Assembly: GCF_037975245.1 (NCBI RefSeq)
Contig: NC_092561.1
Span: 372,001 to 436,000, forward strand
DNA: 64,000 nt
Source: Apostichopus japonicus
Lineage: Eukaryota > Echinodermata > Holothuroidea > Aspidochirotida > Stichopodidae
Direction: 5' to 3'
The notes under the pieces were generated by a model, which saw only the letters and a list, made by a program, of their open reading frames with translations, made no database searches and was not told the origin of the DNA. Position numbers and translations under genes: made by a program. Of the stretch, positions 13,942 to 56,166 are shown in pieces. The number at the start of each line of letters is the position of its first letter. Positions within the stretch are counted from its first letter, which is position 1.

Positions 13942-16900
13942 TCAGGTGGAGGTTGAGTTTATAGAAACAACAGATGCATCGTAATTGGCTTCATCATAGA
14001 GTAGTCCTGAAGTAAACAAAGAAAAGACGACATTGGGCGAAATATACAAACGAGGAGAGTAAAATTAATGGAACAAAAGCAAAATTTACATGTAAATTAC
14101 AAAGTAATCAGATCATGATTGGTCAATGCAGTAGAATGACGATCATGATTGGTCAATGCAGTAGAATGACTGTGTTTTTTTTTTCAGAACAACTTAGAAA
14201 AGGCCTTATCCATTTGGAAGATATCACAGGTTCTGCTTCTTCTACTCACAGGTGCAAAATGCACACCAATTTTTATATGTTTGCTTTATTTATTACAATG
14301 TTTTACTTTTTGTAACTGAGAATGTCTTTGCACATGCTGAATTTAAAATATAGCGTTGACATAGGATGCAGTATCAACATTGCTACCGTTCTACCCCGAA
14401 ATATTAACAGAAAGACAAAGATATGATTTTTTCAGATGCTAGAGGCACTATGACGTCACACATTAACAAAGTAACATCCTATCCCCTCCTCCCCACCTAG
14501 GAGACTTTTAAAGTAGCATATCTCCCAAATGGAGAAACGATTTTCTTTGCTCTCTAAGGGCGTCTTTCATGACCGTGATATCATATAAGACAAAGATGAT
14601 AATGTTAAATTTGTGTCTCCTCTAAATATCTTCAGAAGAAATGTGTATGTATATGAATGTGAATGTGAATATGAATGTGAATATGAATATGTATGTCAAT
14701 GTCAATGTCACTGTCAATGTGAATATGAATATGAATATGAATTTCAATGTCAATGTGAATATGAATATGGATATGTATGTGAATGTGAATATGAATATGA
14801 ATATGTATGTGTATGTGTATGTGAAAGTGAATGTGAATATGAATATGAGCTTGTTTGCATACCTGCAATACATGCAGTCGTGAAGCACGCAATTGAACCA
14901 GCGATCAATGCGCGTAGAGCAACTGATGCCAGATCTCCAGCTCGAGATGGCGCCATCGGCGTCAGCCCTCCAAGTTGGATACCAATCGAGCCAACATTGG
15001 AAAACCCACACAGAGCGTACGTTGCGATTATTTCAGACCGGACCTAATGGAAACAAGACGCTAGTTGAACGTTTGGAAGTGCAGCGAACATGAACGTAAT
15101 CATATGAAAATGTTACTTCGGCCAAGTAAAACAACACCATATTCAAAGTTGCCTATAACTTCAGTGGACATAGTTATATTGTGACAAAACTTCAAAAGTA
15201 TTTGCAAGCACAATTCGTTTATTCCTATTTCCTAATTTGTAGTCTAACTAAAACTCAGAAATAAAATACACCATTTGAAGTATAGAAAAGAACTCAGACC
15301 CCCTACAATCGGCTTTATCTATGGTCCATTTGGTCACACCCTCTCACCTCGTGTAAAATCCTGGATCCACCGCTGCTTCTGCAGCATGCAAAACATATTA
15401 GTCAAAATGGGGGACTTGTGTACGTGCAGGACTCGTTCGGTTAATAGTTCAGTCATAACTTCCCCAATAAATGATTTAATGTTTATTTGAGCTTTTCAGT
15501 GGTCAAGACAACCAAGTTTTCTACAGCAAAAGGGGCAGTGGAATAAGAGTGCTTTCAAGTGAAAATAAACGCTTAAGCAGATGACTGATACATACATACA
15601 TACACACACGCATACATACATACATACATACACACACATATAATATATATATATGTATAAATATGTATATAGGTATATATGTATATAATGGTCTACACTG
15701 GATGTGTAGAAACGTGAACGGGGCAGCCTCTATCAAGTCAGGGGGACATTTGAAGATATGTTATATAGACACTTTCACGTTGGACTATATAGACTTGCTT
15801 CTGTTAGCCAATGAGATATCAACATTGCAAATATGAAGTAAGATCATCCGATAATTATTACTAACCGACATGTATTGTCCAGTACCCATCTGTCGGTTTC
15901 CGATGAATCCCGCCAACCTTTCATAGGCGACAAACTCGTTCAAGAAAGTTTTTATGCCAATCAACTCCGCGACGAGACGGCAGTCCTTTGGCTCAACACC
16001 CATGAGGAAAGGAATCGGAACGAAAACGTAGGAACAAATGAACTGCAACAAAGAATGGAAAACTTCATAGGCATGTTTGAAAAAAATGAGTGATACCTTT
16101 ATAAATGATTTTTTTTGGGGGGGGGGGTCGTCGGAAAAGCTAGTCGTCATTGTGCGACCATTTCAGAAAACCACAGTAAAGAAACCGAAACTTTTCATCG
16201 ATTTTGGAGGAAGATCTGTAGTAAAATGTAGAGTTGTTATTACTTTATTATCGTGAATTCACTAAGTAAGAGTTCATTTAAGTAAAAATATACTTGACTG
16301 AAATCGAACCTTTTGGGTCAAATTTCATGATCATATATCTTATTCGTTTTACCGGTTGACTGACCTACGCCGTGCTGTTTTTCAAAATTGCGAATTTGTC
16401 CTTTTCGTGTCTGTGTTGCTATTTTTGCAACCATTTCAGGTTTTTGTTATTATGCAGTTTGTGTCAATTTGTAACAACTGATATCTGAATCAAAACTTTG
16501 CAAGATCTTCAACATACTTAATATTTAACCTACACGTGCTATCACTACAACCATATATATATATTGCTACAGCTGTGACTAGTAAGGGAACATATGAAAT
16601 ACGAATATTAATCATCTTAAGATTAAAGGATGATAATCTAATCTAAAAAGGTGAGATAAGCCCAGAGAAAGCAAAATAAAAACAAATTATAAACAATCAA
16701 AAACCTTACTTCAAATGATAATTCATCCCATCCAAGAAGAGCACCGATATATCCAAGGACTCCATTTAGTAAGGCGAGTAAGGAGATGAACGCGATCAGA
16801 TTGCCAGCGATGTTGAGAACTAAGGGAATAGAGGTGCTTGCTCCATGAGATGCAGCTTCTATGAAGTTACGGTGATCACTTGAAAAGGGAGAAAGAGAGA

Positions 16901-19900
16901 GCGAGAAAGGTGCAAGAACGTAAAAATCTGAAACAGCTCAATTTGGCGTCAATTTGGTCAATTATCGATATTATTCAATAGTATTACAATTCACATCAAC
17001 GCAGTTCATCGGCGTGGCTATGTTGACTAAGTTTCATTTCATGTATTTGGATTCATTAATAGAATTGATAATGCGCGTTGTTTTTAGTTCTGTTAGGACA
17101 TGGTCTGCTAATGGTTTTGCTAAATAACCCGTACAGTAGCCCTCGATCAGGGCAAACCACACATGGTGGAGTATAATTGTTCAAGATCCCGTCTGGCCAT
17201 TAACGTATTTTTGGTAGAGTTGAGCAATTGTGCACAGTTTACAACCTATGGTGGCATTCTCCTATAAGCGTCTATACCAGTCCGCCCGTATGGAAAGCCC
17301 TTTTAACATTTAATCGGGAAATTTAGATATCTGAAATGGTTTATTTTTTTTTTAGATATCTAAAATTTTATTTCAGATATCTGAAATTCTATTTGAGATA
17401 TCTAAAATTGAATTTGAGATATCTAAACTTGAGTTCGAGATATCTGAAATTAAATTCGAGCTATCTGAAATTGAATTTCAGATATCTGAAATTGAATTTC
17501 ACATATCTGAAATTGAATTTTAGATATCTGAAATAGAATTTCGGATTTCTGAAATTCTCTGGTATTTCGAGACATATGAAATTGATTTTAGGATATCTAC
17601 AATGATTTGTAGATATCGTTAATAAATTTGAGATATCTGAAATTTAATCTGAAATATCTGAAATTATTTCGAGATATCTCAAATTCCTGATTAAATGTTA
17701 AAACGGCTTTCCATAAGCCCGAGTGTTCTCTCATGGAAACGTGCCAAAAAAAAGGAGCAGGAGAACATTTTTCTTGGTATGTTATCAATGGATTTGGTTT
17801 TTTTTTATTGTGGCTGGCACGTTGAAGAGCATGAATGAGAGTACTTGTGGTGTTTACAATTGTGGGTCAATTCATGTAGCATTAGATCCCCTTTAGGCCT
17901 CCAAAGAAGCAGTGTACGAAAAGGATTTACTATTGAGTAAAGACCCGTCAGCTATCCAGTGATGGGTTAGCGTTTAGCTAGTGAGAACTTCTATCTAGAC
18001 CTAGAGACCACAGCTCTTTTATAATGTAGTGTGTATAAGGCAATGGGGCTTTTAATAGGCGTATGCTACCCTATGGTATAACTCACAGTTGAGAGATTTG
18101 GGCCAATTGTTCACAAATAAACGTGATACGCTGATAATGCAAACACACACACAAGTCTATACTTAATTTATCCAGTATCCGTAATTTATCCAGTGATGGG
18201 TTAGCGTTTAGCTAGTGCGAACTTCAGCTATAGACTAAGATATCACAGCTCTTTTATAATGTAGTGTGTATAAGGCAATGGGGCTTTTAATAGGCGTATG
18301 CTACCCTATGGTATAACTCACAGTTGAGAGATTTGGGCCAACTGTGCACAAATAAACGTGATACACTGATAATGCAAACACACACACACAAGTCTATACT
18401 CAAATATTATGTTATTGGCATTGCGTGTTTGTTTTTTCTTTGTTCTTTTCCTCTATTGTTGTATTGTGTTTATCTGTACTGTATATCTTGTTTAAAGGGG
18501 ACTGTTCGTACAAGCTAATGCTTTTTCAGTCCTCCTCCACCATATTGTTTTATCTTGACTTTGTACTACTCCTCTCTTCATTCTTGTGGGAAGATACTCA
18601 AACTCAAACTCTAAATAAACTTCTCCTCACCCTTTTGGTAGGTTAATGTTGTCTATATCGACATGTTTTGATTCTTCCGTTTCAGGATAAAATAATTTAG
18701 CAATTGCAAGAGCCGCCGGAGCCGACATCACAGATGCGGATAAGAGATGAGAGGCACTGATTCCAAAAAAGATGTAAGCTCCTAGAACACTACCAGCTAT
18801 CGTTGCAAAACCTCCCGTCATGACAGCGTGGAGCTCTGATTTGGTCATGTCTTTAATCATGGGTCGAATCATAAGAGGAGCTTCCGTCTAATATAACAAA
18901 AGTACAATAAACCAATATGAATGCATACGGCAGGAACATGGAAAATATGAGAAACAAACTTAGCCCAAGTGTGCATGGTTCTATACAGAGCTGAAGAAGC
19001 TGAATAGCTAATTGACCGATGTTTCAATCGTGGTCTAGACATTTCCTTGATTAGTGGTTCTACAATGAAACAAGGCGGGTTTTTTCTAAAAAGGGTTCAT
19101 AACAACGACAAGTACTCTTGCAGACGTAACTGATGTGTTTCTGGTCTCTTAGTTCATAGCTACCCCATTCACACGACGAGCTATCTTGTGTTAATCTATT
19201 AATCATAGCAGCAGAAAAAGTCCTTGTCGAAAGAGTTGCTATTAATCACAAGGTAACGAATGAATGTGACCTTTCACATGGTATATGAATATGTATGAAT
19301 TTGACAAAATGAACTCCGCAGCATTACCTGTCCGATGAAGATATTTCCTGCTGCATTTAGTGACTCGGAGGCCGAGGTCTGCATGGTCTTCTGCATCAAC
19401 CAAGCTATCTTCTTGATGATAACTTGCATGATACCCCAATGATATAGAACAGAGATGACAGTGCTAAAGTATATGACAACAGGCAGGACCTATCAAAGCA
19501 TAAATAGTATATGACGTAGTGATATCTTAGAGTTCAATCATGGGTATGATATCATATAAACATGACGGACGGCAGAGGAGGGGACCGAGGGGGTTAGACT
19601 GAAAGCGGGTAGGTTACGTTCGTCCTCATGAAAGGAGTTACCCAAGAGAAGCCGTCGTGTATGATATACAAGACACCAAAAACTTATCTGGTTTTGATAT
19701 TTATGAATGATGATACTTTACATGTCGCCATAGATATACACTTCCATCTACCTTCTACTACTTAAATTGGTAACATTTCTAGCAGAGCGCCCACCGTTAA
19801 ATCAACTTTCCATTGCAAAGCCTGATTACTGTTCTTTCCTAATCTACCAATCACAGAGAATGCGCAACGTAGATGAAGTTCGGGGAAGTAGAAACGTGTT

Positions 19901-22900
19901 GATATTCGTCACGTTTAACTATCCACCTAGCTTCCATATTATGTAATTGTGTTTAAATTCTGTCATATCGTACCATGAGGTTAAAGATCTTCTTTATTGG
20001 CTCCAATTATAGCACTCTATAGCTAGGAAAGTTTTGTGATTACGTAATCGATCTGCTACGGTCGTAACTCGACCTCAGGCTTTACAATTAGCCTGCATAG
20101 CTTCTTAACACCATTAGGCTCTTTGTGTAAAACACTGTGTAGAAATGTGTTTCATGTCTACAGTGTAGTTAGTCATACAGCGTTCACACAAAGACTGATT
20201 GGTAAAAAGAGGTCATTTTACGACCAAGGCAGGTTAATTAATCTCAAGAAACTTTTCCACGACAGCGTGCTTTAGTTGGGGTCTATACAGCAGACCTTTA
20301 AAATTAGAAAAAAAAATCTTTCAATAAGTTAACAGTATAGTATTGCGAATGGTATTTGCAAACTCTAATCCTTCTACAGGTGTAATATTCTAGTCGCGAA
20401 CGACATTGTTAACGAAAATGACAAAGGGCGGCCATTCTCGCACCTTTGAGAGTAAATTTTCTGTATACGGAGACATGTAAGTTGTATTTGTTCAAAGAAA
20501 GATTGTAACTAAGGTAACTGTGTATTACTTCACTTGAGTAATTCCAAATGTATGTGCTTTTGTTTCTTAGCAAGCAATACTCCCACTTGCAGCTGAAAAA
20601 AAAAGAACTAATGTGAACGTATAGAAAACTGTAAAACAAGTTTATAACAATAAACCACACACTGCTCGGTGTATTGTTAACTATTTATTCATGAAGGCAA
20701 GCGTGACACTAAAAAAAGAGGTTTTTCGTCCGTTCAAATCAAGTGAAGTGAATACGACTTTAAATCATGTGGTTGTGATTTAGCGTAATCTAGTTCAGAG
20801 ATATCTTCTGCGCATGCGTTGTTCCTGTCTATTTGACTTGCTGTATACTGGTCGATTGGCAACCATTCACAACATGTTTACACTACGACACACTACCTAC
20901 AGTATCGTAAGTCAAGTGTGATGACTTTTTGTCGTGATCCCGCTTCCGTACAGGGTGAGACAAAATAATAAAACACATTACGCGTAGGTGAGATTATACT
21001 TCTCCTCTATTCGGTGGTTCGTGTATAACTGATATGACAAAGGTGACCTCGGGGTAGATATATCTTACGGAATATATATACAAGTGACCTTTTAGAGTAT
21101 AGAATATATGCCAGTCGTTTAGTTAATCTATTACAAAGTGGATGTTTTTGGTTTCTATATGAACACAAAACAATATCTATTTAGCCTTTGGAAAGAAAAA
21201 GTGCTTTTATACGATCCTCTTGCCCCAGGAAACACGTTGACTTCTATTAAGTATAAACGTATGCTATCGATTGTTAGTGGTATGAAATCCCCCCCCCCCC
21301 CCCTTCTCCACCTTGCTAACTATCTATCGTTTACATCACATAAAAACTTGCCAAAATATACAAATTTACTGGCGTGGGGGTGTTTTACACTCGTGAAAGT
21401 TTTCCAACCGTGATTTTGCACTTGAGCACACTTTTGCACACTAGTTTAGAATGCCCCTCGTACCAGGTTAAAATATTCATGAGAATATTCTACACTCTCA
21501 CACCGATGTACAAAAAGTATTTACTAACGTGGGAAAAACAGTAATCTAAAAAGTTACCTTCTTACAATTATGGCACTAACTCTGACTCATTCAAAATAGC
21601 TCTAAAAGTAAGGAAATTTCTTTTCCCCTGCAACTCTGAAAATTTAGAGCTGTTAAGCTGTGAGAGAAATTATATGAGTTTTGTTGTCTCGTATACATTT
21701 TATTTGGTCACAATGGTATATCTTTCTGGTTTTACAGAAGAGAATTGGCTTTCGTCGAGGAAGGCCTTCAAAGACTTTCGATAAGAAGGAAAGCGGGAGA
21801 GATACAAAATGAAGGCAGCTTACCTTGAATGCGAAGAAATGGTCAAGATAACTTGGGTCACCAAACAAAAACTTGGCACCAGCGTCAGAAAAATCGAGGA
21901 AGCTTTGAACGACATCACCCAACCAACGGAATGCTTTAAAGCCAATATCGGTCCGAAGGATAAACAAACCAAAGATAAACTGTAGAGCAAATCCCCATAA
22001 GACTGGCCTCCACTTCACCTGTTAAATCAAAAGTATTCTGGTTCATCATTTACCGTAAACATGTATTCTTGAAATCAGACTTTTTTACATACTTGTCAAA
22101 ACAGGTTCCCTTGTACATAGTCATTCATTCATGTTACTGTAGACCCGGCATATCGAAGTGACCAATTTGTTTTTCTTTGATGTTTAATAGCGTTATACAT
22201 TTGTCAAGATATCGATGTACATCTAACATGCTGATGGTCAGATATGACCAAATCAGGCATCTCGCAAAACTTTGAAAATGATATTAGAATATGGAGTATT
22301 TTTTAGCCGCAAAGATGGGGCGTGTGAGAAAATTATGTCTTTTTCATACAGATTATAGTCATACATGATTTACTTTAGGTTAATCTGGCTAATATTACGG
22401 AGTTCTGTTAATACCAGACTTCAAGCATAACCTTCTCGTGGACGTACAAGTAAGTACCCATACAAAGGTACTCAGGAGTTGGTACTCGCATCAATGAAAA
22501 TGTCGTATGTTACTCAAAATGAGTCGTTATACAAAATCCTATTCTTCTGTACTTTTGTAACGAGTCAGTTTGAGTACTTTCACCCACCAGGGTTTCTGAG
22601 AGAGTACTCATCATTTTGTATAAGTACTCGCACTGTGTGCACTTCTCGAGAAAATTGTACTCACACAACATGTCAGCTGTTCAATATTGATCTGTGTTCA
22701 TTAACATTTAAAGCTCTTTGAACTACTTAATGTTTAAACATGAATATTATCACTTCAAGAAAAGCCTCTGTGCTGTTATAGATTCACTTATTCCTATAGT
22801 GTTAGATGAAGTTACATGTGTATGTTAGTGTGTAAACTTGTGTTGCATTCCGACTGAGGCCCTGAACATATGAATTTCAGGTCCTCATATATGTCATTTG

Positions 22901-25900
22901 AAAAGGATCACTATATACTCACATATCGAGGGTACTTGGAGAAGATGTAGGTTACTATGATGAACACAACTAGACCAGCAGCAGAAGTCAATTGTTGGGG
23001 ATTATCCCAGCAAAGGAAAATCACCAATGCGATGGCAAGGAGCAACAACACGAGGAACACAATCCTAAGGATAAGAAAACAAACACAGTGTGTATTGCTA
23101 TTACATACATGTAAAATTTAAACATATAGCATATATATGGACGGAGACCAATAAGAATATTGTAAAACAGTTTTCTGACAGCATGTGAATGAAAAATGAG
23201 GCACTTGGTGGACACAAATAACAGTTGTCAACTGTGTTATCAAACATAGATACTCTGCATGGTAATTTTGAATACGTAAAATCGGAGATACCAAATCAGT
23301 ACATTGTGGTAAAAGGCTGCATGTATGAAGGCTGTATACAATGTCTTACCAGTTAAATATCTTTCCGCATGAGTTGAGAAAGTTGATTGGAGGCAAGCAA
23401 AGCTTGTTCCAAATCGTTTCACCAAACGCGTCTCTTATGAGTGTATACACCGCAATACAGACTGCTAGAGCAGTCAGCACCAGCAAAACGGTGGCATCTT
23501 GCAAATTACGAACGGATGCGAAGACAAGCCCAATCAGGAAAATTATTAATAATAGCAATAAAACTCCCCATATGAGGTATGTTTTGTTGTCCTTGACTTC
23601 TGATTTGATTGGATCTATCACCACGTCGATACGCTGAAATAAAATTTAAAAAATAGCAAAATATTGGAACGAAATAAGTTATTAACCAAAATAAAGAAAA
23701 GTATAGTAATTACTACAAAACAAGACAAGTAACACATGCATGGCATTATTGATACATATACAACTTGGATTATCTTAACCTCCGATATTCATCCATTCAT
23801 AATTACACAGTGGTGGTCCCCCTGCCACCAGTCTTGTTTAGGATCTCAAATATGGCCTTTTTTGCATACATTACAAGTTCCCCATTTGCTGAAAAAAAAG
23901 TATGTTTTCTACATTTTGTCTGTGAACTAAAGGTCCCTTTTGTTATATAGAAAGTGCAGACCTTTTGTTGAGGAATTCAAAAAGTTAATCAAAAAGTGAG
24001 TTTCCAAGTTTTTTTGAAATACAACAGTTAGAATATGTGGTACGGAATTCAGTTAGGATCAATTTGTCGGAAAGATTGAGGTAACAATTTTTTGTCTCCC
24101 CTCCCACTCCCCTTCCCTTTCCCGGTGATTGAGCGCTCTTCGGCAGCTCAGACTGACCGTACATCATGATTGCATGCAATGCGAGGTATTTGTCCAGTAT
24201 ATTCCATTTCGCAAATACATATTTTACCGAAGCTCAAAGTTTAAACTCAGTTTAGCTGACGTGAATAGAAATACCTGAAAAAGAAGCTTTCTGATTGGTT
24301 GTGGACCCAACGTGTATAAAGTTACCAAACTAACGGGGGGGGGCAGGTTGGGCAACATTTCGTTGTAAAACCTAAGTGTTAGACAAATATGTCACACTCT
24401 ATGTGCAAAAGGGTTTGCCCAGTCCGTCAGAGATTCCTCAATGGAATCCTCAGTGATTCTAAAGACTGCAACTTAGATTGGACCGATATCGCAGCGCCCT
24501 ATACGTTGATTTAGTGTGCGGCTGGAGATCCCCGTTACAGTTAAACATAAAAGAGACTGCAGAGTGAATAACTTTTCTTTAAAACACACTTTACATGCAG
24601 TAAAAATAAAAGCTTCACAATTGTATTTTTAATGACAAGAAACTAGTCGACTAATATTTTATTGAAACACACTTTACATGCAGTAAAAATAAAAGCTTCA
24701 CAATTGTATTTTTAATGACAAGAAACTAGTCGACTAATATTTTATTTTATTGATTTATTGTTTGAGTGGGAAGATTTTGTTCATATTGGGATAATGAAAT
24801 CTTACTGTAATATCACTACTAACTACTTGTTTTGGCTTCCTTTTCTCGTGACTCACTCATGCAATTACAGGTGCACCAATTCCCTTAAATAAATTTAGTT
24901 CAACACTATTAAATTGAATCAATTCCTATCGAATCTAACCGAACCGAACAATAATAGACTTGACAATAGTTCATTATCACTGCCATTCAATCGTTTCATT
25001 AGTGATTTTTTTTAATTTCTAAAAGAAGGAGAAACTAATATTAAAATAAGCCTTCCCTAAGGGCCTAATACTTACCTTCCATGCGCGATACTGAAGGTTT
25101 TGTTCTTGAGTATTGGTTGAGTCCCCATGAGCAGGGTCACCTGCTTCCATGGCAACCTCATGTTTATTGTCGACAGCAACAGCTTCCCCAAAGCTGTCGG
25201 GATTCCCATTAGCAAGATCATCCTCAAAACCAGGATTTTTGAATCCCCTTTCCTTGAAATTAAAACAAAAAGGATAAACAATTATTGCTAGGTCATTTGC
25301 AAATTTACTCGTGATTATTCAATACTGATACAGATTTGTAGTCTAGCAGGCAGGCCTAGTTTCAGTTACATTGTCATTTATTGTTTTTTATCACAAAGTA
25401 CATAATATATGGAACACGTATAGATTAATTGGTAAATGCTGACGTACATTGCCAATTAAGAGACCTAGAAACCTATGTAGGCTTATTCATGAGTTGGTCA
25501 CACCCCGTATAACACAGTTAAACTATAGAGCATATCGACAAAAAATATATGATACAAAGAACAATAACAAAACATAACAAAGCATTAAAAAACAATAAAT
25601 AATTAAAGCAATGCAAAAAAGAGGGAAATGTGGTAATAGTCCGTACTTATCTCAAATAGCTATTTATTCATTATTTTCTGAAAGAAGAAGCAGTGCTAAA
25701 CGTAAACTGTGTGAAAGCGACCAGCTGACCTAGTGTTATAATTTTGAATTTCGTTATTGTAGATAATTCCATTTGTGAAATTTGCTGGGAGTAGATTATG
25801 AACAATGCGGTAAGCAAATGTATATATTGACATGCATGTTTGAGATCAACAAGTTTGAGAACATATATAATGGAAAACAACTTATTAGTATGATCAGTGT

Positions 25901-29487: not shown

Positions 29488-30556
29488 TGAGCTGTTACGA
29501 TGCAAAGATAATGTACATAGCCGCCTTCTCAATAACCAACCCGCTCTGTTAAGATGCAAAGATAATGTACATAGCCGCCTCTCAATAACCAACCCGCTCT
29601 GTTACTATGCTATGAATTTACATAGCCGCCTCTCAATAACCAACCCTCTCTGTTACTATGCTATGAATTTACATAGCCGCCTCTCAATAACCAACCCGCT
29701 CTGTTACTATGCTATGAATTTACATAGCCGCCTTCTCAATAACCAACCCTCTCTGTTACTATGCTATGAATTTACATAGCCGCCTCTCAATAACCAACCC
29801 TCTCTGTTACTATGCTATGAATTTACATAGCCGCCTTCTCAATAACCAACCCTCTCTGTTACTATGCTATGAATTTACATAGCCGCCTTCTCAATAACCA
29901 ACCCTCTCTGTTACTATGCTATGAATTTACATAGCCGCCTTCTCAATAACCAACCCTCTCTGTTACTATGCTATGAATTTACATAGCCGCCTTCTCAATA
30001 ACCAACCCTCTCTGTTACTATGCTATGAATTTACATAGCCGCCTTCTCAATAACCAACCCTCTCTGTTACTATGCTATGAATTTACATAGCCGCCTTCTC
30101 AATAACCAACCCTCTCTGTTACTATGCTATGAATTTACATAGCCGCCTCCTCAATAACCAACCCTCTCTGTTACTATGCTATGAATTTACATAGCCGCCT
30201 TCTCAATAACCAACCCGCTCTGTTACTATGCTATGAATTTACATAGCCGCCTTCTCAATAACCAACCCGCTCTGTTACTATGCTATGAATTTACATAGCC
30301 GCCTTCTCAATAACCAACCCGCTCTGTTACTATGCTATGAATTTACATAGCCGCCTTCTCAATAACCAACCCGCTCTGTTACTATGCTATGAATTTACAT
30401 AGCCGCCTTCTCAATAACCAACCCGCTCTGTTACTATGCTATGAATTTACATAGCCGCCTTCTCAATAACCCGCAACCCGCTCTGTTACTATGCTATGAA
30501 TTTACATAGCCGCCTTCTCAATAACCAACCCTCTTTGTTATACTATGCTATGAATT
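29488..30556. repeat. 52-bp tandem satellite, about 20 copies
   Basis: Unit of 51-52 bp running TTACTATGCTATGAATTTAC then ATAGCCGCCTTCTCAATAAC then CAACCCTCTCTG. It contains the small inverted repeat CTATG-aattta-CATAG. Units alternate between CAACCCTCTCTG and CAACCCGCTCTG in blocks, and between CCTTCTC and CCTCTC. The first two units carry GATGCAAAGATAATGTACATAG, a likely older variant at the array edge. It lies between transporters A and B. Confidence 0.95.
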
Positions 30557-30990
30557 TGTTAAGTTTTTTACAGAGGAGATCAATAATATCTGGTCTAAGC
30601 TGGATCAAGCTGCGCAAGCAACGGACCATTTGTGGGTTACAACAGAAGACCATATCACTGAAGCCACAGCGTATATTCACAATTCCCCTGCTTGATTAGT
30701 AACTTGGAACATAAGCCCCATACCCTACCAACTTCACTGGTTGCCTATAGAGTAGAGAGCCATTTTGAAGGTACTTCTTATTATTTACTGTTCCCTTGCT
30801 ACGGGCCATCCTTCTTTTATTATATAGCTCTTGCTTTAAACACTGGACTGAGATCCTACGGCTAATACAGTCATGTTCATTGGAACTCGCTCCCTCTACC
30901 TATTAGAAATTCGACTTCGTTTTATGATAGCCAGATATGTCTGAAACCATGGAGGTGGCAATAAAATGTTTCTTGAAGTTTGAACATGAA
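30553..30990 (+). mobile_element. Internally deleted LINE 3' remnant
   Basis: The plus strand first gives FFTEEINNIWSKLDQ, which resembles the segment before the RT domain of CR1/Jockey-type LINEs. It then jumps to the C-terminal signature LHWLPIE near 30732, followed by VHWNSLPLPIRNSTSFY near 30875-30925 after a frame change. Most of the reverse transcriptase is missing. An AT-rich tail follows at about 30985-31020. The remnant directly abuts the 52-bp satellite. Confidence 0.7.
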
Positions 30991-31474: not shown

Positions 31475-42278
<10,804 letters not shown>

Positions 42279-44536: not shown

Positions 44537-46014
44537 TCAACTTCGTGAAGTCAAATCGGAAATATATGTAGTCGGGAGAGCTGTGCTAGTTGCATTGATT
44601 TCCATAGTTGTCTCATAATCGGAAGCATCGTATAAAATACCTGAGCAAAGACGGAAGAAAATAAAAAGCCACTCTTTAATACCTCCGAATGTACTCTTGT
44701 CAATGTAATATGAGAGTTCAGATCTTAATATTGGGTGGTTGAAAGATGAAAATGAATATGACGGATAGTGATAACGTAAAATACAGGTGCTTTCGGGAGT
44801 CCATTTTGGAGTAACCCTTTGACAGTGTAAGCCTTTACTGGGAAAACTATAGCACTGGTATTGTCAGAAAGTTTCCACTGCAACAGGAATGTGGTAATGC
44901 TGGTTTATGGAAGCACCCACGTAAACGGGGATCCCCCCCCCCCCCATAATAAGATCAACGGGATCCACCTATTGACAGGCAGAATATTATAGATAAAAAT
45001 CCTAGTCTACGGTACATAAATATGTCATATATATATGTGCGGTAAAATCTTAAAAGTCGAAAATTCTTCAACATTATTTCAAAAGTTGCAAAATATATAT
45101 ATCGCCATTTGCGATTTGCACCCAAGCACCCTCCATAAGACCAACATGTCTCAAAGGGGAGGGGACCATCCCTCCGAGTCCATTTTACGACTTGGTATAT
45201 TATCCCTTCCCAGGCTGCCCCTCCCCCAGTACAAACTAGCTGGTTGAGCAGGCAATGCTGATTCCTTGTAATCCGTTCATATTATTCAAATAACTTTCTG
45301 TCATAAAATCCAACCTGCAGGGCGCCTCCTATTCAAAATACAAGTTGCCCTACAGTGTTGGGCAGCGGAATTATCATAAATTGTTACAGATTACATATTT
45401 ACTCGTCTTTAAAATATGCCTAAACGACTTCCAGAAATGTCTTTTGATCATATCCTGTTACATAACCTATAAAGTGGCATACAAAGATGGTTTATTGAAA
45501 GACTGTGTAATATTTTATTCGTTTGTTACCTGCCACGCATGCAGTCATAAAACAGGCTGTAGTTCCACCAATGAAGGCCCGTATTGCTACTTCAGCGAGA
45601 TCAGACCCTCGAGAAGGGGCAATCGAAGTGAGCGCTCCAAGTTGGATACCTATTGTTCCAACATTAGAGAAACCAGAGAGGGCATATGTTGCAATCACTT
45701 CCGATCTTATCTGTGATACAAATGAAAAATGACAGATCTTATTATGAATAATTACAAGGCCATTTTTTTTAAACCAAATTTGTACGCATGCGTACTAAAT
45801 ATTGGACTTGATTAGGAGGCTATAGAAACCAGAATGCAACATTTGCAATCGGAAATGTTTACTGTTTTTAAATAGTAACTATAGTAAGGCTAAATCTGAT
45901 CATTCTCCTAATTTGTTAGTACAATTATTTTTCTCAAGGGGAGTGGTTGTAGTAATCTAAGATGGGATTTCCCTACTCACACAGCCCCTCCTTCAGCCCG
46001 TCTCTGATGATTAT

Positions 46015-46331: not shown

Positions 46332-49300
46332 TTATATTTATATAGGCATATACATATACATATATATGTACAGATGATTCACATCATAACCTACCGAGAT
46401 TGTAGGTCCTCCTCCTGTTATCCTGTTGTTGATTATTTCAGCTAATCTCTCGAAAGCAACAAACTCATTGAGAAAAGTCTTTAGACCGATTAGTTCTGCA
46501 ACAATACGACAATCCTCCCACTGGACCCCCATCAAAAATGCGAAAGGTGCAAATACATAGGAACAGATAAACTGAAAATTACAAAATCAAAATTGATTAA
46601 ATATCAAGAACTTCGCATTTTTTTTTTGCACAGACAACTTAAATATCATTGAAATGTAATTATGTTAATTTATTCCAAAAAATAGGTGATGTCAAACAGT
46701 TAAATGATACACTTATCGTTTTGGCAACGTTGACACATTTTAGCCGAATTCCTTAAAATATAAGTACAACCTACTAATATGCTGTGGTTCGTTATTCACA
46801 GAGTTTACAGGTAACAAGCTTCTTATATAAAGTTCTTCATATCAAGTACACAAATAGTAAATTTGAAATATGAAACTTTAGTACAGAAAGAATAAAAGAC
46901 AATATGCTACTATCACTAACTTCGAAACTTAGTTCTTCGACTCCCACCAAGCTTCCGAGGTATCCCAGAATTCCGTTTAATAACGCCAACACGGCAATGA
47001 ATGCAATCAAGTTACCGGCGATATTAAGAGTTAGGGGTATGGCGGTGATGGCGCCACGTGATATTGCCTCCGTAAGGTTCTTCTGGTCACTACAATGAAG
47101 GTTACATTCATCATTATTGAATAATATATCTCAGTTGAGAGGAACATAGCCTACTATATACTATTCTCTCCCTCGAGTAAAGTTCTAAAATGATATAGAA
47201 TCAGATAAAAATCAACTGTGCGAAATAGGTAGCTTGTTATTGACATATATAAACATGTCCAAGTTATACCCGTCACAGTATATCTCAAGTAATATGGTAA
47301 GAACGACTTTCTTTAAACCCTGAATAAGTGCCATACAATTTGTGTAGAGTTCTACTATTTATTTCTCTGACTCTTCAAGTAAATCAATTTCGTCGTTGTT
47401 CTTTTTTTAACACTGTTGTAACTCTTCCGTATCCGAATCAGAAATATTCGCATGTTATATAACCGCATGTAATCTTTACTTTCCGGTTCATCCCCCCCCC
47501 ACCCACCACTCCGCCCCTCTCTCTCACACCTCTTTCTATGCCTCTGTCTTCACCCCCCTCCCCACTCTTTCTCACCTTCGTAGTCATGCAGTGCAAACGA
47601 AACACGTACCGTTGGTTAAATGACTTATCTTACAGTTTAAGGGTTGCACAGATAGAGCGATGTCGTCTTTAACTAATCTTTAACATTGAACCTTTTAATG
47701 TATAGCTGATAAAGTGGTGAAATTAATACGACCAGCGAATCTCGTATTAACCATATAAAGCCTACACATTACAAATAAAAATAATAAAATAAAAATTGGT
47801 GCTAGTTATACCACAATAAAATATTCCTTATCTTACCCTTTGGGTAAATTAATCTCTTCCACCTTCTGAAATTTGGACTTTTCCGTCTCCGGGTAGAAAA
47901 GTTTCGCAATCGCAAGAGCTGCCGGAGCGGACATGACGGAAGCCGATAATAGATGTGACGCACTTATTCCAAATGCGATGTAAGCTCCAAGAACACTCCC
48001 AGCGAGTGTTGCAAAGGCTCCTGTCATAACAGCATGGAGTTCGGATTTAGTCATGTCCTTTAAGATCGGTTTGATCAGCAATGGTGCTTCGGTCTGTAAC
48101 ATTACAAGAAAAGCCATATGTCATTGACTCATAAAGGAATATTTGAAACCCCACTATTACTTATAAGTGGATGTGCTGAAATGGCCGCTATGATTTTAAA
48201 AGTCCAAGACTTTCTTGCGGTGACGGTTCTGAAATAGGTTCCATGGTACCCGTATTTTTCAAGTATGATTGTTAAAGTCATCATATGCGTCAAAAGGGCA
48301 GCATTTCAATATCATTTGTTGACAAGGAAGACTAGCGTCCCCTCAGTTAATACACGGTATTGTTTAACTCCCTTATTAACCCCCCCCCCCCCCTCCACCT
48401 TTTACCACATCCACCAACATACAAATATGGCATATGATATATAGTTGTCAATGTAAAAGACGAATATGACTAGCCAACTGCCAAATCTCTTTCTCTATCG
48501 ACTACCTCTCCACACCCCACCCCACACGACGCCCGCCCCACAACCCGATTGAAAAGGTTGGTTATGCCACTGCAGTACTGTTTGATTTCGTCTAAGATTT
48601 GTATTCCATTAAATTTAATTATTTTTGTTTGTTTAAAGCTTAAATATTTCACATCGAAATATTTCTTGTAACGTCGCGAATATTTATTGGAAAGTATCAT
48701 TATTGACGACCTTAGTCAAAAATCTCTTTATTTGAATTATCATAACTTACCGGGCCAACAAATATATTTCCTGCTACGTTTAATGATTCGGCAGCTGATA
48801 TCTTCATGGTCCTTTCCATCAACCAGGCTATCTTCTTTATGGCATATTGCATGGCTCCCCAGTAGTACAGTACGGAGATACAGGTGCTGAAATATATGAC
48901 CGAAGGAAGGACCTATAAATTAACGACAATAAAGTATATTGGTTTAGTAATGTCCATAAATTTCAATTCATGATCAATTTTTAGTACAATCGATGTTTGA
49001 CTTCATTTCAACGATACTATTCATCTGTGTGACAATTAAATAGAAAAGAAATTTAAAAGACAAAGGAAATTTGTTTTTATGAAGATATATTTCAAATCAT
49101 GATGATTAATCTGGTGTAGATAATGCCGAAATATCTGAAACAATTCGAGAGTGAAATATGAAAACCGTCGCCGTAGTTCGATCCTAGTAAAACAAAGGTG
49201 ATCTTAACAGACAAACTTGTCGAAAGACATTTGAACAGACAGAACTGTACAAGCTGGATTATAACTTCATAATTGTGAAAAACAGTGCCCGATTAACCAA

Positions 49301-50387
49301 CCACCTGTACGGAGCCCCAATGCATCACATGCTTGCCAGAGGAGGGCCCTTAGGCTGCCCAACTTTATAAGTGCATAGAGGGGAGGTATTAATTCTGGCA
49401 AGCGCAACCGGACAAATGAACATCTGTCCTCGGAGTGTACACGGGGCCCCTTGACATTAGCAGTCTTTTGATTGTTTCACCTGTCGCGTTAATCCGACAT
49501 TGCGGAGGGGGGGGGGGGGGGTAGGTGTGTTCGGGTGTCATGGAAGAGGAAAGACACTCACTTTGAAGGCAAATAAATGGTCGAGATACTGTGGATCTCC
49601 GAACACAAATTTAGCTCCTTCGTCAGAGTAGCCAAGGAATGTTTGAATAACATCGCCTAACCAATTAAATGTTATGTATCCGAGTTTGGTCTTGAGTACA
49701 AACAGAGCCAGGAGGAATTGAAGTACCAAACCCCAAATAACAGGACGCCACTTCACCTGCATATCAAGAAGAATATGAGATTATTATTATTTTCAGAATT
49801 TGACAACACGAAATATTAATTATCGTTAATAATGTTAATTATCGTTGGAACATTTAGAAGGTTCGTGATATACATGGAATTGATACAGACCCGTAGCCAG
49901 GAATTCAAGGAGGGGACACCAACAATGTAAGAAGGGTCACAATACTCGTGTCCTGTATATATGTCCACCCCTAGTCTCTCAAGTTTGTGACATCGCCTTC
50001 CCACCCCCCCCCCCCCACACCTACCCAACTTTAAGGATAAGTAAACCGTCGACTACTATACGGATGAATGTGAGTGGGTGAAGATGTGAAACAAATTTGC
50101 TTTCCGAGTACATACAATGCTAAAAATCACCATATTGCGTCTTACCGACGAGACAAAAGTATGTATCTAATGATGATATAGACCTTAATACACTAACCTT
50201 TCTTGGATATTCCGAAAAGATGTAGGTTACAAACACGAAAAATAACAGACCAACTCCTGAGATGAGTTGTTCTGGATTTTCACGAGACAGGAAGTAAATT
50301 CCTACTCCAATACCAGCTAATATCACCAAGGTAATAAACCTAAAAGGAAAAATAAAGAAATGTTTGTATAATATATATATAAATATA

Positions 50388-50432
<45 letters not shown>

Positions 50433-52155
50433 ATGGTTATAGTATAATTATTCAATTTGCCATATGCCATAACTTATCGACAAGTATAGCCTATACATAT
50501 TTCAACATTCAGTGATTGTCCAAATTATAATTTTAGCGATCCAATATATAACGCCAAATTATTTTCAATTTACAACTTAGTAATGTATTTTTTATCCAGG
50601 TTAGTGCTGCGAGTACAACAAAATGAAAACGCGAGTACAAGAAGAAGTCCCATTGGTATATGAGTACGTCGAGTACAAGGCTCTCAGCATGAGTACGAAT
50701 AACCAACTGCGTACTAGTAGCTAAACCAGGTTTCCAGACTATCACTTAGTACAGGATTGCGAGTACAACTTCACGAACACCCGATACACACAGAGAACAC
50801 AGTTACTACTGTAAATGTTAGTTTTGTGCCAAAGTAAATATTGGATCGCACTATAAATCGTAGCATGTGCTATTATGATGATATGTGTAATCCCGACAAA
50901 TCCAGTTGTTAGGATATGTTGGAATTACACATATCCTCAGTCCTTACTGTAATCCTAATAACACACACATGCTACCGATTTATCAAATTTGTCTGCACAA
51001 TCCAGTTTTAACTGTGGTACAAAACTTTAAGATTTACATTAGTTACTACATGTAATCTCTGTGTGAATCGGCTGCCACGAAGGTGAAAACATGTACTTAC
51101 TACACTAAGTCTGGCATTACCTATATAGGTAACATTTTCAATACAGTGTAACATAACCATTTTTACCTAAAAAGAGTAATCCAGTATACTCTTGGATATA
51201 TAATAAACTTACCGTTTTCCCATTTTCCATATTTTCTCTATGATATCCACAGCAGGGGAGAGACAATTATGCCAGATTTGATCACCAAAATGGTCTCGAA
51301 GAAATGAGTAAATATAAAGGATGAGAACAAGACCAGTAAGGGATAATAGAAACATTGCATTGTCTATGCTTAGATAGCAGGCATATGTGAGGTAGCCGGT
51401 GTAGCAGATAAGCAATATGACCAACATGACTTGTTTCAGTAACTTCTTGTTCTCTTTTCTAAATGCTGAGATCTTTGCTGTGATCGCATCGATGGTCTGC
51501 GGATATTACAACAAGAAAGGATTTATAAATATGATATCGGTTACGCTCCTCTCCTCTAATTTATTGTGTTTTCTTAATGTACTGAATTATTTTCATATTT
51601 TCATTTTATTTTATGTCTGTTTTTCATCATAGCCATTATATGCCACTTATCAGATCATGAACACGAATATAAAATATTGACAGTTTACAGGCATTAATGT
51701 CGTAAGAGATAACTCCAGAATTATAATCTGTACATAAATGTTCTATTGAACTGTATCCGATAAGTGCATATGAGTGCACGAGTCTTACATGTATTGCACT
51801 ATTTAGCAGTTCTTCGTTTTTAGATGGTTACGTTATTACGGGTAAGCAACAAATAGAAAGTTATATCTATAACCCCTCGTTAACTATTAAACAATGCTAT
51901 TGTAAAGCTAAACTATGAAAACATTTTGGTATACATTAAAACAGAAAACATTACCGTCCAAATTTTTGTTTGAAAATCATTATTATCTTCTGCATTGTCA
52001 ACAATTCCCGATTCCTCTTTGGTGTAAACATTTCTTGAGTCCATCTCTCTATCTTTAGCAGGGATGGCATTCGAAGACTTATCGAGGGGATTCAGACTAA
52101 TCTTTTCATATTCGTATTCAAGCTTGAGGAAAGAGAGAAGAAAACGTTGAACAAG

Positions 52156-52186
<31 letters not shown>

Positions 52187-53139
52187 GAAAATCGTAATGA
52201 GTTGGAAAATCAAGAACAGTGAAAAAACTTTCAGCCTCCACCGGGATTCGAACCACGGGCCTCCCCGCTCTGTACGCGGACACCCTAACCACTAGGCTAT
52301 GGACGCTGATTGTATGTCCAGAGGTTCGAAACCGGTAAGGAAGATCGTAATTCCACTGTAGGCGTTTGTCACCTATATCGAACAATACTAGTTCTGTTTT
52401 TGGTGACATATTTTGCCCTACTCTAGAGATCAAACATGATGCTATCCAACTCGAAATCATTTGTGATTCCTAAAGCCGGATCTCGAAAGAGATACTTTGA
52501 ACAGACTTTATGTTAATGCAATGGAGGTAAACGACAAAGGCAAATGAATATATATAAATGAAAATCGTAATGAGTTGGAAAATCAAGAACAGTGAAAAAA
52601 CTTTCAGCCTCCACCGGGATTCGAACCACGTGCCTCCCCGCTCTGTACGCGGACACCCTAACCACTAGGCTATGGACGCTGATTGTATGTCCAGAGGTTC
52701 GAAACCGGTAAGGAAGATCGTAATTCCACTGTAGGCGTTTGTCACCTATATCGAACAATACTAGTTCTGTTTTTGGTGACATATTTTGCCCTACTCTAGA
52801 GATCAAACATGATGCTATCCAACTCGAAATCATTTGTGATTCCTAAAGCCGGATCTCGAAAGAGATACTTTGAACAGACTTTATGTTAATGCAATGGAGG
52901 TAAACGACAAAGGCAAATGAATATATATAAATGAAAATCGTAATGAGTTGGAAAATCAAGAACAGTGAAAAAACTTTCAGCCTCCACCGGGATTCGAACC
53001 ACGGGCCTCCCGCTCTGTACGCGGACACCCTAACCACTAGGCTATGGACTCTGATTGTATGTCCAGAGGTTCGAAACCGGTAAGGAAGATCGTAATTCCA
53101 CTGTAGGCGTTTGTCACCTATATCGAACAATACTAGTTC

Positions 53140-53226
<87 letters not shown>

Positions 53227-55807: not shown

Positions 55808-55811
55808 TTCT

Positions 55812-56166
55812 AACACTCCTATAGTGAACACTCCTATAGGAGCTAACACTCCTATAGGAGCTAACACTCCTATAGGAGCTAACACTCCTATAGGAGCTAA
55901 CACTCCTATAGGAGCTAACACTCCTATAGGAGCTAACACTCCTATAGGAGCTAACACTCCTATAGGAGCTAACACTCCTATAGGAGCTAACACTCCTATA
56001 GGAGCTAACACTCCTATAGGAGCTAACACTCCTATAGGAGCTAACACTCCTATAGGAGCTAACACTCCTATAGGAGCTAACACTCCTATAGGAGCTAACA
56101 CTCCTATAGGAGCTAACACTCCTATAGGAGCTAACACTCCTATAGGAGCTAACACTCCTATAGTGA
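55812..56166. repeat. 18-bp minisatellite, about 18 copies
   Basis: Almost perfect tandem copies of CTAACACTCCTATAGGAG. Because 18 is a multiple of three and the unit has no stop, several frames stay open on both strands (117, 187 and 206 codons), giving hexapeptide repeats such as NTPIGA. These are not taken as genes. The unit contains the palindrome TCCTATAGGA. Confidence 0.95.

Follow-up and report, generated by a model that had tools for sequence, protein, structure and literature searches.

In the concentrative nucleoside transporters (CNTs, SLC28), few residues are known to decide between purines and pyrimidines, and the HP1 glutamine is among them; these proteins also carry nucleoside drugs. 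Human CNT2 (SLC28A2), which is purine-selective, has Met at that position. In vcCNT the uracil base touches the residue, Gln154, directly (available text of PMC4139061), and the corresponding residue of human CNT3 (hCNT3, SLC28A3) is Gln341 (Table 3 of PMC5465479). Section 11 of PMC5465479 reports that changing this glutamine alters selectivity, and that hCNT3 Q341C stays active but takes up less cytidine and thymidine in Na+ medium and, in acid Na+-free medium, less uridine, cytidine, thymidine and adenosine. The available text of the same source describes normal activity for hCNT1 Q320C, low activity for NupC Q147C, and an inactive hCNT3 S568C. That of PMC7440666 adds that hCNT3 S568P lost uridine binding, that hCNT1 S319G/Q320M becomes broad, and that the further changes S353T/L354V make it hCNT2-like; it follows from these conversion mutants that purine-selective hCNT2 should carry Met in place of the HP1 Gln. 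A Pro substitution at hCNT3 Gln341 was not found in the available parts of the cited CNT mutant literature, and a literature search with few subscription papers within reach found no title on a Pro-type CNT or on an invertebrate CNT expansion.

Gene C and known transporters

Gene C lies on the minus strand of the window (the whole stretch of DNA analysed, 64,000 nucleotides long, positions 372001-436000 of contig 1 in a genome of 671.6 Mb in 35 contigs) and is an intact SLC28/CNT gene. The Pfam domains Nucleos_tra2_N, Gate and Nucleos_tra2_C match it in this order (99.7, 64.2 and 257.8 bits, all above the cut-off), and all three also match its neighbour B; C and B were the genes scanned. The best alignment was with bovine CNT3 (C residues 41-578, E 3.2e-159), human CNT3 aligns over C residues 65-578 (E 1.4e-152), and the core of vcCNT (3TIJ) aligns as well (E 3e-82). 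C has the extra N-terminal membrane helices of animal transporters: its phmmer alignment starts at residue 65 with hCNT3 and only at residue 177 with vcCNT, and the solved bacterial CNTs have no counterpart of its first 176 residues.

Like CNT3, C keeps six of the seven substrate residues other than Gln341 (Thr342, Glu343, Val375, Glu519, Phe563 and Asn565; hCNT3 numbering is used for contacts throughout, with the contact list from the available text of PMC7440666), keeps Ser374, and keeps Asn336, Val339 and Thr370 of the Na1 site. Unlike CNT3, it has Pro for Gln341, Thr for Ser568, Ser for Cys561 and, in the Na1 site, Leu for Ile371. Most binding residues are likewise shared with vcCNT, whose Gln154 and Ser371 are replaced in C. 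The resemblance to human CNT2 is the lack of Gln at the HP1 position, but the residue in C is Pro and not Met, and C retains Ser374, for which the hCNT2-like conversion needed Thr. The CNT2-type signature of Gly-Met in HP1 and Thr-Val in TM7 (available text of PMC7440666) is absent from C, which reads Gly-Pro and Ser-Val. Certain bacterial CNTs, from Bacillales, Cyanobacteria and one Gemmatimonadetes MAG, share GPTE[AS]P in HP1 with C, and unlike C they have no introns.

Gene models and the proline codon

Splice sites of C and of its two tandem neighbours, A and B, were set by eye and by script, and the 5' ends are not established. The features are as follows.

48751..48753, minus strand: Pro codon CCG of gene C, at the hCNT3 Gln341 / vcCNT Gln154 position, the last codon of the HP1 exon, adjoining the GTAAGT donor
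51955..52122, minus strand: gene C exon 1 as modelled; true start codon and 5' end not established
51213..51496, minus strand: gene C exon 2, N-terminal membrane helices
50198..50339, minus strand: gene C exon 3
49562..49756, minus strand: gene C exon 4
48751..48912, minus strand: gene C exon 5 (HP1 exon), 162 nt, ending AGNIFVGP
47837..48093, minus strand: gene C exon 6, opening TEAPLL, TM7 with the LAGSVLGAY segment; likely a gene-conversion tract with B
46921..47089, minus strand: gene C exon 7
46395..46571, minus strand: gene C exon 8, HP2, NEFVAFE, with the equivalent of Glu519 kept
45530..45710, minus strand: gene C exon 9, TM10, SGFSNVGT, with Thr at the Ser568 position (codon 45654-45656)
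44537..44640, minus strand: gene C exon 10, C-terminal tail and stop
32679..38765, minus strand: gene B, nearest paralogue of C, nine modelled exons, Gln at 35486-35488, Ala at the Ser568 position
14863..25252, minus strand: gene A, nine modelled exons, Gln at 19328-19330, all eight contact residues as in hCNT3

The interval 48751-48912 is exactly one exon of gene C, translated VLPSVIYF...AGNIFVGP. It is exon 5 in the present model and was exon 6 in the original prediction, the first exon or exons of C not being fixed. It ends GGC-CCG followed by the donor, and the next exon opens ACC GAA GCA CCA (TEAP), so the joined reading is VG-P-TEAPLL, with Gly-Pro-Thr-Glu in place of the HP1 motif Gly-Gln-Thr-Glu. 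Genes A and B read xG-Q-TEAPL here, their HP1 exons ending GGA CAG before GTAATG (A) and GGC CAG before GTCAGA (B). The original prediction, that C has Pro where A and B have Gln through a single change from CAG to CCG, is thus borne out by the exon ends and splice joins of all three genes, and one base separates B's codon from C's. It had also named this glutamine as a nucleobase contact, which agrees with the phmmer alignment of the Pro codon to hCNT3 Gln341 and vcCNT Gln154 and with the contact described in the available text of PMC4139061 and PMC7440666.

The frame of C is otherwise intact, as had been claimed. All nine exons modelled at first are open and, exon 1 excepted, have the lengths and phases of those of A and B; the tenth joins in frame and has a stop at its end. 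A TGA inside one family match over exon 8 is intronic, just before the acceptor, and the exon itself is free of it. The donor of the HP1 exon ranks second among the 27 donors of A, B and C under a simple matrix built from those same donors.

An assembly base error, with CAG as the true codon, is suggested by the single base between the codons of C and B, but we consider it very improbable: C also departs from A and B elsewhere among functional residues, with Thr for Ser568, Ser for Cys561 and Leu for Ile371; a full-consensus GTAAGT stands on the adjoining intron side; and three more genes of the genome have lost the Gln here, one of them through two base changes. A second allele copy of the HP1 exon was not found in the assembly, which holds only one exon identical to C's. 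The original prediction had allowed for A-to-I editing that restores Gln in transcripts, and this is impossible because CCG has no A. Alternative splicing as a way to restore Gln was also rejected, as the HP1 exon of C, used as query against the genome, matched ten exons, each in a different CNT gene, and no alternative Gln exon for C turned up.

Directly upstream of the first modelled exon of C, at 52175-53145, are 2.6 copies of a 373-bp tandem repeat, which holds a stretch that is tRNA-like by eye (GATTCGAACC).

The HP1 position in ten genes of one genome

The last codon and splice site were read in all ten HP1 exons; A, B and C were modelled over nine or ten exons, the other CNT genes in part. 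Gln is present in six of the ten: A, B and the genes at 8.77, 9.81, 13.40 and 13.51 Mb of contig 1. The other four have Pro (C), Gly (9.84 Mb of contig 1, GGG before GTAAAC), Met (2.41 Mb of contig 5, ATG before GTCAGT) and Cys (15.78 Mb of contig 5, TGT before GTGAGT). The 13.51-Mb gene (locus L133) is an apparently broken near-copy of the 13.40-Mb gene, with stops inside family matches and one exon split between frames, and both contig 5 genes have a stop codon, in exon or intron, within some family matches.

With the 13.51-Mb gene left out, the HP1 Gln column changed four times on a tree of the nine genes with hCNT3, bovine CNT3 and vcCNT. Of the 129 columns in which the three references agree and none of the nine genes has a gap, 5 have at least four changes. 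Other contacts vary too. At the Ser568 position B and the 13.40-Mb gene have Ala and C has Thr; at Val375 the 9.84-Mb gene has Leu and the 13.40-Mb gene Ile; neither contig 5 gene retains Glu343; and the 15.78-Mb gene departs from hCNT3 at Thr342 and Asn565. All eight hCNT3 contacts are found in only three of the nine genes: A, the 8.77-Mb gene (with its exon 9a) and the 9.81-Mb gene. Gene B, proposed at first as a clean comparison for C, does not serve as one, having Ala at the ribose contact Ser568, and the earlier comparison of C with A and B alone understated the variation.

The glutamine had been described as conserved. It is replaced in four of the ten HP1 exons of this genome, in hCNT2 (by Met) and in bacteria (by Pro, Met, Val, Leu and others), and because so many members deviate it is not taken here as family-defining. 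The Pro of C belongs to a kind of change that is ordinary in itself but affects unusually many gene copies, and the idea that pockets are retuned repeatedly draws more on all ten genes than on C by itself. A wider reading is that the last HP1-exon codon acts as a repeated switch point for substrate choice after duplication, giving a graded repertoire of pockets in which C is the Pro type; we regard this as unlikely, though worth stating. If it were true, C would have a selectivity not yet described in an animal. The reading draws on the four different replacements of the HP1 Gln, on the changes at the contacts Thr342, Glu343, Val375, Asn565 and Ser568, and on the alternative TM10 exons of one gene, which would swap Ser568 for Ala.

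That gene, at 8.77 Mb, has two tandem TM10 exons of 181 nt each, 49 nt apart and 64% alike, reading CGFANIGS and CGFSNVSA (about 467-876 of locus L129, minus strand; G000:C1:8766464-8766879). A transcript holding both would be thrown out of frame, so the two are probably mutually exclusive, and the choice between them would swap the contact Ser568 for Ala. The young pair at 9.81 and 9.84 Mb (loci L130 and L131) differs at ten of 379 amino acids, and two of these changes affect contacts: Gln341 became Gly, by two base changes, and Val375 became Leu. The contig 5 genes at 2.41 and 15.78 Mb (loci L134 and L135) read TIVP and STAP at HP1, so they are without Glu343 and Gln, and one has His for Asn565; from these residues, the substrate of the two divergent genes may not be an ordinary nucleoside.

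In A, B, C and the paralogues the HP1 selectivity codon is the exon side of the splice donor (CAG before GT), with a full-consensus GTAAGT on the intron side in C. Since the codon adjoins the donor, the choice of residue may also be under splicing constraint.

Proline at the same position in bacteria

Bacterial and archaeal genomes were scanned with the pattern [AG]NIFxG-X-TE[AS]P, where X stands for codons without A in the second place, which excludes Gln by design. Among the 120 stretches listed, X was Met in 51, Pro in 30, Val in 15, Leu in 12, Ser in 5, Ile in 4, Thr in 2 and Gly in 1; the sample is not random, and the counts are not whole-family frequencies. By record title, the 30 Pro cases among the matches listed come from Bacillales (14), Cyanobacteria (15) and one Gemmatimonadetes MAG. 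Two Pro-type bacterial CNTs were tested, and both belong to the TIGR00804 nupC subfamily.

A FastTree of 140 sequences was built from 96 full-length members of the 120, 32 CNTs from Bacillales genomes (a few of them repeats of loci already in), the nine genes and the three references. Pro appears on it in three bacterial clades and separately in C, and the HP1 position undergoes 28 Fitch changes over the 140 leaves. Common descent of C with the bacterial Pro-type genes is not seen on this tree, and because C groups with B, at 100% support among the genome's CNTs, Pro arose separately in C. The Pro cases and clades among the sampled bacterial CNTs show that Pro at this position is a stable natural state. 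The change at Ser568 also has parallels: 13 of the 28 full-length Pro-type bacterial CNTs among the matches listed have Ala or Thr there, and 2 of the 28 combine Pro at 341 with Thr at 568.

AlphaFold2 was used to predict the structure of a Pro-type CNT from Sporosarcina, from a 63-row alignment and without substrate (mean pLDDT 91.4, pTM 0.91). The HP1 helices span residues 134-142 and 151-159, and Pro148 sits in the unwound linker between them. Pro as a helix breaker was therefore rejected, as the model, which is of a bacterial relative and not of C, places Pro in the linker with no helix broken. The original prediction had expected that a rigid Pro might abolish transport. This part is not supported: Pro forms clades in the sampled bacterial CNTs, it is predicted to sit in the linker of a confident model, and hCNT3 Q341C transports.

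Constraint on gene C

Between B and C, the 1567 nt that begin with exon 2 give dS 1.07 and dN 0.142, a ratio of 0.133 (Nei-Gojobori); silent sites between A and either B or C are saturated overall. With such a ratio at a dS of about 1.07, C has long stayed coding, and it is under purifying selection. Exon 6 of B and C (34820-35076 and 47837-48093) has a dS of only 0.24, against 1.0-1.3 or saturation in the other exons, so gene conversion of this exon is likely. The Pro codon is in exon 5, outside the converted-looking exon.

With A as outgroup, 41 amino acids changed in C alone and 20 in B alone (Tajima P 0.007), while changed silent third positions number 48 in C and 33 in B, and the protein/silent ratios are not significantly different (Fisher P 0.38). 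Of the 60 differences between B and C, 2 fall on the eight contact residues, which is no enrichment (P 0.37). Together with a protein acceleration not significantly above the silent one, this gives no support for positive selection on the pocket of C. Contact enrichment was found only in the young 9.81/9.84-Mb pair (dS 0.10; 2 among 10, P 0.016, uncorrected and one of six paralogue pairs).

These numbers bear on whether C has lost nucleoside transport and is heading to a pseudogene or serves in another role. Its amino-acid branch is long, at 0.186 where B has 0.031; of 152 reference-invariant columns it has changed 34 and B 26; and the hCNT3 mutant S568C is inactive (available text of PMC5465479). 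However, C has ten open exons with usable splice sites, a dN/dS of 0.13 against B and an exon 6 that looks converted with B, and intact bacterial CNT genes contain Pro at 341 as well as Thr at 568, together in the two cases given above. A pseudogene was judged unlikely on the intact exons and dN/dS, and loss of transport as a whole is quite improbable.

Operon context and the selectivity of gene C

The surroundings of Bacillales CNT genes were also examined. In a first look at 8-kb loci, a purine riboswitch was found in 4 of the 14 Bacillales Pro-type loci, and in three of the four the order was riboswitch, hydrolase, CNT. A search of 19 Bacillales genomes, 14 chosen for a Pro-type CNT and 5 for another non-Gln CNT, gave 50 CNT matches, two of them fragments of a single gene that looks broken. 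After 49 stretches had been taken, each with 4 kb upstream, and this gene dropped, 48 were left. By HP1 residue these are Gln 21, Pro 16, Met 4, Leu 2, Val 2, Ile 1, Asn 1 and Asp 1.

Purine riboswitches (RF00167, gathering score) precede 5/16 Pro, 1/2 Leu, 1/1 Ile and 1/2 Val genes on the same strand; within 4 kb upstream there is none in 21 Gln, 4 Met and 2 other genes, nor in 11 of the 16 Pro-type genes. Pooling Pro, Leu, Ile, Val and Met gives 8/25 against 0/23 for the rest (Fisher P 0.004), a pooling made after the counts were seen and with kinship ignored. A hydrolase-like ORF, recognised by motif, lies upstream on the same strand in 12/16 Pro, 2/2 Leu, 1/1 Ile, 1/2 Val, 1/4 Met, 1/21 Gln and 0/2 other genes, and the two ORFs that were scanned are both PF01156, inosine-uridine preferring nucleoside hydrolases. 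Because the genomes were picked for non-Gln CNTs and the Pro-type genes are close relatives, the riboswitch and hydrolase associations do not represent many independent events. Pro-type CNTs are tied to purine-responsive nucleoside salvage in this one bacterial group. In B. subtilis a guanine riboswitch controls the nucleoside transporter gene yxjA/nupG (available text of PMC9756952). A purine riboswitch upstream does not prove purine selectivity: one of the guanine type in B. thuringiensis controls a regulator that affects pyrimidine nucleoside use as well (available text of PMC9430930).

With the HP1 position changing often in the family and Pro present in some bacteria, we infer that C is most likely a working importer: a functional Na+-coupled concentrative nucleoside transporter with a re-tuned nucleobase pocket and altered selectivity. 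Judging from its residues, a changed base selectivity is likely and abolished transport unlikely. From the solved structures of the family, the change of Gln to Pro would take away one polar side-chain contact with the base; from the Sporosarcina model of a Pro-type relative, the Pro would fit the unwound HP1 linker; and Thr at 568 would make the ribose end of the pocket slightly bulkier. Since Thr342, Glu343, Glu519, Phe563, Asn565, Val375 and most of the Na+ site are kept, C should still bind Na+ and a ribose-bearing substrate.

The same evidence can be read as a near-neutral change, in which C is still a broad CNT3-like transporter and Pro matters little to the substrates carried. The site tolerates many residues, as the 28 changes on the tree indicate, hCNT1 Q320C has normal activity (available text of PMC5465479), TM7 keeps Ser374 and Val375, and contacts are not enriched among the B-C differences. 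Yet in vcCNT the Gln side chain touches the base, and it is known to help determine selectivity, C also has Thr at Ser568, and operon context differs between Pro-type and Gln-type CNTs in the Bacillales set, which makes a near-neutral change improbable next to altered selectivity.

The direction of the altered selectivity is more tentative. By analogy with hCNT2, with hCNT3 Q341C and with the Pro-type Bacillales operons, pyrimidine handling might be weaker, with purine nucleosides left or favoured. A shift of C toward purine nucleosides has, in our judgement, slightly less than an even chance, and one point against it is that C keeps Ser374, where the full hCNT1 to hCNT2-like conversion needed Thr. 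A natural animal Pro transporter beside tandem Gln sisters, with Pro-type bacterial relatives in purine-regulated operons, is a ready-made comparison for how much this single contact governs selectivity.

Two tandem arrays of 20 copies each are also present in the window, one with a 52-bp unit at 29510-30557 and one with an 18-bp unit at 55810-56163.
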